NCBI RefSeq assembly: GCF_026914265.1
Contig: NC_069134.1
Coordinates: 68,069,594 to 68,133,593 of the forward strand
Length of the DNA stretch: 64,000 nucleotides
Reading direction: 5' to 3'
From: Mya arenaria
Lineage: Eukaryota > Mollusca > Bivalvia > Myida > Myidae
Shown here: piece by piece, positions 54,409 through 60,400 of the stretch
Position numbering within the stretch: the stretch's first letter is position 1
How the letters are laid out: the number at the start of each line of letters is the position of its first letter
Notes under the pieces: model-generated
Told to the model about the DNA's origin: nothing
Database searches by the model: none
What the model saw: only the letters and a program-made list of their open reading frames with translations
Translations under genes and position numbers: made by a program

Positions 54409-57400
54409 AGTTTGTCAGTGCATCAAAAGAAGAGCTGATGGTACTGACTGTGTCGGAAATTGTCAGTGAACTTATCAAGGCCCATGAGCATAACAAAGAC
54501 ATAAATCTGAACAGGTAAGAATGAATCTACAAGAAGATTTATTTTCAACAGTAGTATTTGAGCCATACACTATTTGTCATGCCTGATCCCTTTAGCCTAG
54601 ACTCTGTCTAACTAATGAGTCTTATACATTTAAGTAACATAATAACTATCTAAGTTCAGTTTGTCTTATTGTGAAAAAAGTTCAAGGAATTGTTATACTG
54701 TAGCTGTTGTATAATCATTACTCAAATCTTTAGTCTTGGCCTTATTAAATACATATGAATGAAACTTTTCAGAGTATTCACAGATAGTGTAAGACGTCAT
54801 TGAAGATAACATGACTATTATGCCTACAGCTCTTTCAATAAGTGTTAAGTTATGTCACTTGATTAACATAGAAAAACAGAAGAGCATTGGCTTCTGCATA
54901 ATAATGAGTTTCGTGGTCTTGATGTTATTGACCATGCTTTATCATTCTTTCTTTATCTAACAACTAGATCATTATTATAGCTTTTGTCACTCTGACAGTG
55001 TTTGTCACACAAAGATATTAATTTACTGAAACTAAACTGTGTTTCAGAGTAAAGACCCGGATCGCCAGCAAGTATGGCCTTCCAAGTCAACCAAGACTGG
55101 TGGATATCATCGCAGCAGTTCCACAGCAGTACAAAAAGGTGAGACAAACTGTTCATATGTTGTTTACAGTGATCTACAGTGATCAGCAGTGCAACTATTT
55201 TGAAAAATATGTTTATGTTGGTTAAATTGAATATGAGCCCTTTTGAGTTGTTCTTGTGTTGCAAGTTATTTCATGTCACCAGTGTGTGATGTATTATTTA
55301 TATTGAAACTAAACCAATGATATTAATATAACAAGTTGAGTTCTATGTAAACTGTCTTTCTGTAACATTTTAAAAAAATGTATTCTTTCTGTACTATAAA
55401 TGTCAACTTGTTTTCCTCAGATGTTGTTACCAAAACTGAAGGCTAAACCAGTAAGGACAGCGAGTGGGGTAAGATCCTTAGAATGATTAGACAAAATAAG
55501 ACAATCTCTCACATGATTGTACGTTTGTAGCCCTGTCAGATTTTAGTGATTTACAACCTAACACTTACCATTGACAAATTATCTTCCTTGTTAAAAATTG
55601 ACCACTTGCCTTAAAACCAGTTTTTAGCTCGACTATTCGAAGCATATGGAGAGCTATACTACTCACCCAAGCGTCGGAGTCGGCGTCGCACCTTGGTTAA
55701 GGTTTTGCATGCAAGCACACATAGGTTAATATCTCAGCAACTACTTGAGGTATTGCATTGAGACTGTATAAAATGGTACTCAACCATCCAACCTACTTAA
55801 TTAACCAAGTTAGATAACTCTAGTTTGCATTAAATTCAAATAATAGCCCCTTTTTTATTCAACATAGAAATTCTGGTTAAAGTTTTGCATGTAACCACAT
55901 TTTAGTCAATACTTCAGTGAATACATCATGTATTGCATTGAAACTTTACACACAGGCTCTTAACCATTTAACTTTCTTCTTTAATCAATTGAGATAACTC
56001 TATCTTTCATATTATATAATTTTTGCCCCTTTATTATGCAACTTAGAAATTCTGGTTAAGGTCTTGCATGTTAGCACACATAGGATAATATCTCAGCAAC
56101 TACTTGATGTATTGCATTGAGACTTTATACAATGGTATTCAACCACCCAACGTAATTGAATAACCAAGTTAGATAACTTATTTTGCAAATAATGGCCCTT
56201 TATTTATTAGACTTAAAATTCTAGTTAAAATTTTCCATGTAATCACATTAATGTTAATATCTCAGCACATCATGTATTGCATTGAAATCTAATCTAACAG
56301 TGATCCATGCATGTTTCGCCAAAACTTTTCAATCCTTACACTGAAAAGCGGCGGAATAGTCGAGCGCTCTGTCTCTGTGACAGCTCTTGTTAGTGGACAC
56401 AACTATGTTACATTCAAAATCGGTAAATAGTGAGGGATGCTACCGGGTTATGCTGCAGACAGCAAACTGAATACATGTACATTTATTTTCCTGTTCATTT
56501 AGGAAATCTCTTTTCAACAACTATCAGTTGCATAGTAAATACTGTTACATGATTGTATATATTTCCCAAGTGTATCAGTCAACAGTCCATATACTTAAAA
56601 ATATAGAAATTATGTTTGTTTAGCATATAATTAATATTGTTTAAAAAGATCAGCGTGTTATTTCAGATAGCAGTGGTTGCTGTGATGTGCAAGCCCCATA
56701 GATGTCCCCATATAGCCATGACAGGCAATATTTGTGTGTAAGTAATAGCACATATGTCCCCATATAGCCATGACAGGCAATATTTGTGTGTAAGTAATAG
56801 CACTTGTGTCTTCATATAGCCATGGCAGGCAATATTTGTGTGTAAGTTATTACAGTTTACACATATTTCCCCATATAGCCATGGCAGGCAATATTTGTGT
56901 GCAAGTAGTAGCACATATGTCCCCATATAGCCGTGACAGGCAATATTTGTGTGTAAGTAATAGAGCATATGTCCCCAAATAGCCATGGCAGGTAATATTT
57001 GTGTGTAAGTTATTACACATATTTCCCCATATAGCCATGACAGGCATTATTTGTGTGTAAGTAATAGCACATATGTCCCCATATTGCCGTGACAGGCAAT
57101 ATTTGTGTGTAAGTAATAGAGCATATTTCCCCAAATAGCCATGGCAGGTAATATTTGTGTGTAAGTTATTACACATATTTCCCCATATAGCCATGACAGG
57201 CATTATTTGTGTGTAAGTAATAGCACATATGTCCCCATATAGCCATGACAGGCAATATTTGTGTGTAAGTAATAGAGCATATGTCCCCATATAGCCATGG
57301 CAGGCAATATTTGTGTGTAAGTTATTACACATATTTCCCCATATAGCCATGGCAGGCATTATTTGTGTGTAAGTAATAGCACATATGTCCCCATATAGCC

Positions 57401-60400
57401 GTGACAGGCAATATTTGTGTGTAAGTAATAGCACATATGTCCCCATATAGCCGTGACAGGCAATATTTGTGTGTAAGTAATAGCACATATGTCCCCATAT
57501 AGCCATGGCAGGCAATACTTGTGTGTAAGTAATAGAGCATATGTCCCCATATAGCCATGACAGGCAATATTTGTGTGTAAGTAATAGAGCACATGTCCCC
57601 ATATAGCCATGACAGGCAATATTTGTGTGTAAGTAATAGAGCATATGTCCCCATATAGCCGTGACAGGCAATATTTGTGTGTAAGTAATAGCACATATGT
57701 CCCCATATAGCCGTGACAGGCAATATTTGTGTGTAAGTAATAGCACATATGTCCCCATATAGCCGTGACAGGCAATATTTGTGTGTAAGTAATAGCACAT
57801 ATGTCCCCATATAGCCATGACAGGCAATATTTGTGTGTAAGTAATAGAGCATATGTCCCCATATAGCCATGACAGGCAATATTTGTGTGTAAGTAATAGC
57901 ACATATGTCCCCATATAGCCATGACAGGCAATATTTGTGTGTAAGTAATAGAGCATATGTCCCCATATAGCCGTGACAGGCAATATTTGTGTGCAAGTAA
58001 TAGAGCATATGTCCCCATATAGCCGTGACAGGCAATATTTGTGTGTAAGTAATAGAGCATATGTCCTCATAAAGCTGTGGCAAGCAATTTTCGTGTGCAG
58101 GTAAATACATATAAAATTTATGTCCCCATGTAGCTGTGACAGGAAATATTTGGGTGCAAGTATTTACACTGTCACACTTATTCAAAGAGTTACTACTTTG
58201 GGAATGAACCTGTAAAAGCAACTATCTAAGGCCTAAAAAAGCGTTGTTTCTAGTTACCTAATGAAAAAAAAGGATCAAAAGGGATTTGCAGTAGTGATGA
58301 AACGATTATTGAGTAAAATCGCTAAATCGTCCCTGACAATGCTATGTCGGCGACAATCGATACTGGTTGTCCAAATCGATGTTGCTAATATTACTTCCGG
58401 TAACTACATATTTTTTGTTTTGTAGTAAAATTTGAGTAAATGTCTCGTCAAGTTCATTTTAACAAAGGAGGTCACTGTCTTACACTTAGGCGGTGAATGT
58501 AAACATGTATGCATAAAAACTTACAAATTCTCCAAAAATTACAAATTGTTTTTAATTGTTTATATATTTCATTAAACCTTCTTCAATCACCTGTCTCTAT
58601 GATGGTCTGGTCTTACCCACAAATATCGGGGATCCCAGCTTGATGCATTCTATTTTTGAAACCTTTTTTGGTATCGTTTGTTATTAACTAATTTACTTTT
58701 TTTGTGAAAGTACGAAATTAAGATATTCTAATAAATTTTTCAATAAAACAGGTTAAGCTGGTTCAAAAATATTTAATATGCTTTTACATGGATGAAATGG
58801 ACAGATAACTGTCTTGATGCGGTGTGCATCTTTTTGCAACTGATATGCAAATATTAAGTATGTGCTGTGTTTTGATGTTTTTTCGTTAAGTTGATGAAGA
58901 CAAAAAAAAGATGTTGCAAAACATGTACTGATTCCAGGTTTAACCATTTAAATGATCATGATGATACTATATATAAAGAATGTATTCCTGACTGATATTA
59001 TGAACTTATGATTATTGTCCAATAGTAAATCGAAATTAAACCACATATCAATTTTTATTTGTCCTCAAATGAAAAGAATAAGTATTATTTGAAGGTTTCA
59101 ATTCTGTTTGAAAGACATTTTTATGATTTGTAGAATCATTAAGGAATTTATTCAAGCTTTTGATATTCAGTTAAGCCTAGCAGTCCATTTACATAATGAA
59201 TAATTGCCTTGATTGATGTTTACATGTTTAACTAAAAAATAGAACAGAAGTTTATTTTCATTTTATGCAAACACTTATTTGTGATCATTGTTACATCAGG
59301 TACTGCCCAGGAGGTCCTGACTCAGACTTTGAGTACTCCACCCAGTCTTATACAGGATATGAGGTAGGCATTAGTTAATTGGTTATGCTCTTGTATTGAT
59401 AAAGTCAGCAACATTATTTTAAGCTGGTCTTAAGTACAAATGTATCCGGAGACTATGTGCACATATATAGCGAACGGATAACTCTAGTTTCAATGATGAA
59501 TTATGTCCCTTTTTATACGCCCATCTTACGATGGCCGTATTATGGGAACACCCATGGCGGGCGGGCGGGCGGCTCCACAATGTTGTCCGCTCTCTCACTT
59601 GAACATTTCTCATCCAATTTCCACCAAACTTCATGAAAGTGTTTGTTGGTGAAATATCTAGGTCAAGTTCGATAACCAGCCAAATCGCTTTAGGCACTCC
59701 AGAGTTATGGCCCCCTGAATTTGTCAAAATTGGCCATTTTAGCTTTGTCCGCTCTCTAACTTGATCATTTCTCATCCAATTTCCACCAAACGTCATGAAA
59801 GTGTTTGTTGGTGAAATATCTCGGTCAAGTTCAATAACCAGCCAAATCGCTTTAGGCACTCCAGAGTAATAGCCCCCTGAATTTGTCAAAATTGTCCATT
59901 TTAGCTTTGTCCGCTCTCTAACTTGAACATTTCTTATCCAATTTCCACCAAACTTCATGAAAGTGTTTGTTGGTGAAATATCTAGGCCAAGTTTGATAAC
60001 CAGCCTAATCGCTTTAGGCACTCCAGAGTTATGGCCCCCTGAATTTATCAAAATTGGCCATTTAAGCTTTGTCTACTCTCCAACTTGAACAGTTTTTATC
60101 CGAATTTCACCAAACTTGCTACTATAAATGTTTGTTGGTATATATTCTTGGCAAAGTTCTATAACCAGCCAGGCTCTTCAGGATCATGGCCCTTGAATTG
60201 GTCAAAATTTGCCATTTTTGCTTTGTCCACTGTCTAATTTGAACAGTTATCATCTGATAAGAACCTATGAAAATTATAGACATTTTAGCACCTTTTGACT
60301 CGAAACCCTCGAATTAAAATAATTTTTTTCTACTGTTAATGCCATATTGTGCCAAATCATTTGCTTCTTGAAAAGCTTGCTTCTCAAAGGGCCAATGTGA

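Follow-up and report, generated by a model that had tools for sequence, protein, structure and literature searches.

In the 64-kb window analyzed here, which lies on C13 of the genome of the soft-shell clam, the mollusc Mya arenaria (1.216 Gb, 18 contigs), coding exon 5 of ELP3 ends in a stretch that, together with the adjoining splice donor, forms the first unit of a head-to-tail array of 28 units that runs on into the following intron. Lancelet genes have been reported to contain minisatellite-like arrays in which an exon-intron boundary, on either side of the exon, is tandemly repeated; these have been named 'mirages' (PMC3087553, PMC3902484), and we consider, with a probability of about 0.85, that the ELP3 array is a coding-derived intronic minisatellite of this kind, silent and with its true copy intact. 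The observations that underlie this reading are the anatomy of the array, its confinement to a single locus in a search of the genome, its unchanged first copy, its worn distal copies and the stop codon just behind the true donor, into which any later donor would run. The extra copies most likely go unused; a function for them is unproven and none is needed to explain the array. The novelty is therefore in the clam case and in its recurrence in the genome, the kind of array being already known.

Anatomy of the ELP3 array

The gene was recognized as ELP3 by a protein search in which two models from Mya arenaria itself stand among the best 120 of 6850 matches: P0122, the NCBI ELP3 model labelled 'isoform X1' (549 aa, 100% identity), and P0127 (568 aa, 98% identity). 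Chaining of P0122 onto the window and the next 40 kb downstream gave 16 coding exons and ends at the stop codon. The N-terminal part of ELP3, searched against the clam's own genome, yielded five matches (E <= 0.001), all inside this gene. The exon that bears the array was counted as the fourth in the initial annotation; it is the fifth of the 16, the first coding exon having only 22 bases. Its acceptor, ttatttcag, precedes 56667 and its donor, TGT followed by GTAAGTAA, lies at 56738. The features directly concerned are the following (exons and intron placed by protein-to-genome chaining, units by alignment; coordinates are those of the window unless a contig is named):

56667..56737, + strand: ELP3 coding exon 5, 71 nt, of which the final 36 nt belong to unit 1
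56702..56753, + strand: unit 1 (wrap-around alignment), made of the exon end (56702-56737), the true donor GTAAGT (56738-56743) and 10 intron bases
56738..59299, + strand: ELP3 intron 5, 2562 bp, which holds units 2-28
56754..58060, + strand: units 2-26, intronic copies, with GTAAGT in 23 of 25 (GCAAGT in units 4 and 25)
58061..58119, + strand: unit 27, diverged or rearranged, with insertions and with CAG directly followed by GTAAAT at 58101
58120..58170, + strand: unit 28, distal worn copy, with 10 differences in 52 columns and GCAAGT
59300..59363, + strand: ELP3 coding exon 6, which begins with G followed by TAC TGC

Wrap-around alignment, worn distal end included, places the 28 units at 56702-58170 (1.47 kb), the first being the real exon end and the others (2-28) 27 intronic copies. 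Tandem Repeats Finder reports a single array at 56702-58104, with a period of 52, 26.8 copies, 90% matches and a score of 2197. The 52-bp unit consists of the last 36 bases of the exon, the six bases of the GTAAGT donor and 10 intron bases; the initial annotation had given its length and its three components correctly, and their split, stated as 35+6+11, had to be changed. Chaining and alignment confirmed the gene, the donor, the approximately 28-fold copy number and the spread into the intron that had been proposed. The claimed ladder of near-perfect donors was also found, GTAAGT being exact in 24 of the 28 units (counted in 56701-58170) and replaced by GCAAGT in units 4, 25 and 28. No other donor of this exon showed up, its true donor being the first copy, and the distal acceptor of intron 5 is outside the array.

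The similarity of the array to the exon end is far above chance. Aligned locally with its own intron, the donor edge of exon 5 scores 100, compared to a maximum of 27 in 60 shuffles, and the 29 other ELP3 exon edges (out of 30) score no higher than their own shuffled maximum. A general proneness of ELP3 exon edges to duplication was rejected on this basis, only one edge out of 30 being concerned. When a two-unit query was compared to the whole genome, all 16 matches listed fell inside this array (match counts in the own genome are lower bounds), and a satellite dispersed over the genome was therefore rejected. Minisatellites are head-to-tail arrays of variant repeats, with units of roughly 10-100 bp, and the ELP3 array consists of such head-to-tail variant repeats. 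On the - strand, a stop-free antisense frame of 437 aa (56850-58163) spans the array; most likely, such a frame simply results from the absence of antisense stops in the repeat unit.

The units differ from one another in an ordered way. Unit 1 is identical to the array consensus in 52 of 52 columns, even in the 10 intron bases that are not constrained by the protein, which suggests that the exon end seeded the array recently or exchanges with it. The two distal units, 27 and 28, are the most diverged, and a higher-order pattern of three units can be seen by eye in units 5-7, 8-10 and 11-13. Differences from unit 1, counted over units 2-26 with units 27 and 28 left out, amount to 33 of 900 cells in the exon part, two of 150 in the donor and 33 of 250 in the intron tail. 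The exon part carries 11 distinct variants, seven amino-acid-changing and four silent (all possible single changes being 87 and 21, respectively), and a Cys-to-Phe change at the C102 codon is present in five of the 25 core copies. Amino-acid changes thus accumulate in the copies, which are not evidently kept as protein code. The idea that the copies are retained as coding sequence was accordingly rejected, seven of the 11 distinct variants changing an amino acid, and the initial suggestion that the kept coding part hints at a function is not supported.

The remaining ELP3 coding exons of the window were placed by the same chaining; exons 10-16 are beyond it:

50653..50674, + strand: coding exon 1 (MVKNKKR), 22 bases, N-terminus of P0122
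54409..54514, + strand: coding exon 2
55048..55138, + strand: coding exon 3
55421..55468, + strand: coding exon 4
61085..61153, + strand: coding exon 7
62983..63137, + strand: coding exon 8
63911..63991, + strand: coding exon 9

Arrays around ELP3 and at other exons of the genome

Tandem arrays with a period of at least 10 occupy 21.2% of the 104 kb around ELP3 and 24.5% of the ELP3 intron sequence. Only one of the 30 ELP3 exon edges is inside an array, compared to about 6-7 expected (binomial P of 1 or fewer 0.007). Exon edges bearing arrays therefore look avoided, and a single such edge is, in itself, not improbable. A further array of the window, 4.6 kb long (39879-44477), consists of about 177 copies of a 26-bp unit; the stop-free frame of 659 aa associated with it (+ strand, 39804-41783) may or may not be coding.

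The initial annotation presented the expansion of a radical-SAM exon end as a singular case, which it is not: the same is found at an AMPK-gamma exon and, apparently, at other exons of the genome. The two places concerned are both on C1:

C1:36614473-36614899: AMPK-gamma exon with its array (loci L076 and L082), the array itself at C1:36614509-36614899
C1:39071446-39077400: apparent gene with three successive exon-like stretches (A, B and C) whose edges lie in arrays (loci L065 and L047)

In the first place, the end of a coding exon and its GTAAGT donor make up an array that runs into the next intron, as in ELP3. It differs from the ELP3 array by its period (53 bp compared to 52), its copy number (7.4 compared to 28) and its 98% matches, and is apparently younger. 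The peptide encoded by the exon finds AMPK gamma-1 in the PDB (2uv4 and others, E 6e-07); its comparison with Pfam gave nothing useful. Sequence that we take to be AMPK-gamma-like, from motifs with at most two mismatches, flanks the array on both sides.

In the second place, the acceptor edges of stretches A and B are repeated upstream (67 bp x 4.2 and 89 bp x 3.3, respectively) and the donor edge of stretch C is repeated downstream (52 bp x 24.6, with an exact AGGTAAGT in 17 copies). The copies are thus on the intron side, as they are in the AMPK-gamma case. Diverged relatives of stretch B are present on C15 and C8, and no array is listed by Tandem Repeats Finder at the corresponding edge in them. 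No relative was found for stretch A in the three loci to which its search was limited, nor for stretch C in Pfam, in the PDB, in a region-limited protein search and in one further search; the coding status of these two stretches is therefore supported only by open frames that plausible splice sites enclose. The apparent gene also gives a weak, below-cutoff match to C2H2 zinc fingers.

Other donor-bearing arrays were sampled at 26 loci of C1 and C2 (8 + 10 + 8). A convincing exon ending at the donor of the first unit was found at two of the 26, L076 (AMPK-gamma), called by homology, and L047, called by an open frame of 190 nt between plausible splice sites and for which no homologue was found; since three or more of the last eight loci had been chosen for a coding-looking unit, this proportion is not a rate. 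Seven of 18 loci (L052, L055, L056, L059, L060, L062 and L063) have no donor near the array edge, L052 and L055 (the latter with its edge L067) being the only ones of the seven read by eye. Open stretches that precede the first donor (for example at L049, L053, L054, L057, L074, L080 and L081) were dismissed by eye only, and some of them may therefore be exons. A search of a plasmid collection led nowhere. It should also be mentioned that several arrays occur twice on C1, at 34.7-36.6 Mb and at 43.4-45.5 Mb, mirrored around 40.0-40.1 Mb and in opposite orientation, which suggests a large inverted duplication or an assembly artefact.

Donor choice and alternative readings

Past the true donor, the reading frame continues as TGT GTG TAA, with an in-frame stop directly after the donor. 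The translations obtained with donors 2, 3, 4, 26, 27 and 28 all end in NICV and a stop at residue 113; since this TAA lies in the tail of unit 1 itself, the remaining decoy donors give the same stop. Both Mya ELP3 proteins read NICV followed by YCPGG, which corresponds to donor 1 joined to 59300. As far as the sequences indicate, splicing would always take donor 1.

Under the mirage reading, the array would have started when a tandem duplication took in the last part of ELP3 exon 5 together with its donor; repeated rounds of unequal exchange, or of replication slippage, would then have brought it to 28 units, with local homogenisation. Splicing would take place at the first donor and the copies would be removed with the intron; stray use of a decoy would lead to an mRNA that encodes a 113-residue stub and is open to nonsense-mediated decay. 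The array would be tolerated because the true copy stays intact; selection would permit arrays of this sort as long as their growth is directed away from the exon and does not damage the true splice site.

Several results weigh against this reading. The label 'isoform X1' of P0122 implies that a further ELP3 isoform presumably exists, and P0127 has an N-terminus unlike that of P0122 and misses 10 residues where exon 8 begins, so that this model is not free of flaws. Varying columns are more frequent in the intron tail of the unit than elsewhere (9 of 10 compared to 12 of 42; Fisher P 0.0006, which is overstated since the units are not independent), an excess that plain neutrality with even mutation does not predict. 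It could result from mixed duplication junctions or from constraint on the donor and exon parts; the junction between units falls in the tail, so its variability may reflect different duplication breakpoints. In the genome, three copies of AGGTAAGT spaced as in an array are more frequent than the reversed motif used as control (2182 to 1341 and 1809 to 1022). This is not so for the ELP3-type GTGTAAGT (883 to 829), and donors as general seeds of arrays were therefore rejected; all these counts are of overlapping matches, not separate arrays, with places among the matches listed on C1 and C2. Lastly, predicted RNA accessibility and U1 pairing supply no reason for donor 1 to win. The predicted pairing with U1 is -7.0 kcal/mol for the true donor and ranges from -4.3 to -12.2 for the 14 other ELP3 donors; -7.0 is also found for the copies whose tail starts with AA, with weaker values for TA tails and for GCAAGT copies, and the strongest pairing of four donors compared (-8.3 kcal/mol) belongs to the CAG-GTAAAT site of unit 27. 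Predicted accessibility over 9 nt of RNA is 0.001 at donor 1 and 0.012 on average in the copies; donor 1 being the less accessible, an RNA structure that would hide the decoys was rejected.

Work on human genes does not make the exclusive use of donor 1 obvious either: in tests with two donors, SRSF1 and enhancers placed between them favour the intron-proximal site, whereas hnRNP A1 and silencers favour the intron-distal one (PMC5585400). The first effect would favour decoys in ELP3 and is in line with a reading in which the ladder controls dosage, U1 taking a decoy at times, the product being destroyed and the copy number setting ELP3 output. Such a control is consistent with the 24 exact GTAAGT, with the common stop after NICV to which the decoys lead and with the only moderate pairing of the true donor with U1. 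Furthermore, the title of a 2001 paper by Lievers reportedly links the length of a variable number tandem repeat (VNTR) in the human CBS gene to reduced activity. However, both Mya protein models use donor 1, the copies drift at amino-acid sites, the effect of hnRNP A1 and silencers goes in the opposite direction and lancelet mirages are reported without aberrant mRNAs (PMC3902484). Overall, we regard dosage control as unlikely.

The animal could also have fewer copies than its assembly. Tandem arrays are easily miscounted, one lancelet mirage was misassembled in a genome draft (PMC3087553) and C1, judging from its paired places, looks mirrored. However, the differences between units are ordered, like arrays are present at other exons, and the published Mya reference, presumably the assembly used here, is a PacBio FALCON-Unzip assembly with a contig N50 of 3.4 Mb, compared to an array of 1.47 kb (PMC10663159); its annotation drew on RNA-seq. 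An assembly artefact, which the initial annotation had envisaged, did not show up with this reference built from long reads, and we consider it very improbable. Ratchet (recursive) splicing, in which each unit would act as acceptor and donor and the intron would be removed stepwise, can be dismissed almost entirely, since the juxtaposition of AG and GT in unit 27 (TTTTCGTGTGCAG followed by GTAAAT, window 58090-58106) is matched by no AG before the donor in the 27 other units, the intron is just 2.6 kb long and only 10 of the 20 bases upstream of the CAG of unit 27 are pyrimidines.

Comparison with known exon-boundary repeats

In ELP3, the true donor of a conserved gene stands next to a ladder of near-identical donors with 28 steps, and this design is found again elsewhere in the genome. 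Two-site minigenes are the usual means of studying how one of several identical neighbouring splice sites is chosen. It is possible, at somewhat less than even odds in our opinion, that splice-site minisatellites abound in a second animal lineage, that of Mya arenaria, where they would occur in conserved genes and on both the donor and the acceptor side, and that its splicing machinery copes with dozens of near-perfect decoys through their position, taking the first donor that follows an exon and the last acceptor that precedes it, or that copy number sets expression. If so, either outcome would amount to a natural series of splice-site competition experiments: exclusive use of the first donor would reveal a strict positional rule in vivo despite very heavy competition, and use of decoys would make copy number a testable dosage control. 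In lancelet globins, it has been suggested that exon-boundary minisatellites give rise to new introns, and the present case would extend such minisatellites to a mollusc. Our search of the literature, mostly without subscription papers, found no exon-boundary array in molluscs.

The remark of the initial annotation that it knew of no described case is not supported in view of lancelet mirages (PMC3087553, PMC3902484) and of the human CBS VNTR (PMC2630376). The latter, c.1444_1467+7(16_21), is a 31-bp repeat of 24 exon and seven intron bases present in 16-21 copies (PMC2630376) and tabulated as exon 13-intron 13 (PMC1395315). Like the ELP3 array, whose unit joins a coding exon end to a 5' splice site and extends from the true exon end into the intron, it combines the exon end (to c.1467) with the first intron bases and shows a constant unit length with substitutions between units; it differs by its shorter unit (31 compared to 52 bp) and by length alleles that have been tabulated in people. 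In the same gene, 844ins68 is a duplicated intron/exon junction that sets two like splice sites in competition, as they would be in ELP3, with a strong preference for one of them (PMC2630376); the two sites are called donors in that source, and their position leads us to read them as acceptors. The VNTR of human ABCA7 intron 18 is likewise an intronic array, and its length is associated with the skipping of exon 19 and with reduced expression (PMC6660495); the part of the report available does not state whether its unit contains a splice site or exon sequence.

The closest relatives of the ELP3 array are the lancelet mirages, known in Adh3, globin, troponin C (TnC) and PGBD5 genes (PMC3087553, PMC3902484), the troponin C and PGBD5 examples having been added by the second of these studies, which reports that the Adh and TnC mirages generate no aberrant mRNAs (PMC3902484); lancelet mirages are reported to leave splicing undisturbed. 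The ELP3 array is, like them, a tandem duplication across an exon-intron boundary with a copied splice signal, and all share head-to-tail boundary-spanning units and an authentic copy that is kept. Lancelet mirages exist in donor-side and acceptor-side versions, with units of 10-160 bp, and both sides are likewise found in Mya arenaria. They are backed by RT-PCR (reverse transcription polymerase chain reaction) and length-variation data, whereas the ELP3 array is known here from one reference assembly; the host is a mollusc and not a lancelet, and its 28 units compare to three and six in two BflGb6 haplotypes. Finally, lancelet mirages are homogenised inside the cluster and leave out worn units at its boundaries. 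In ELP3, the distal units 27 and 28 are similarly worn but the unit at the exon side equals the consensus, whereas boundary units of lancelet mirages escape homogenisation.

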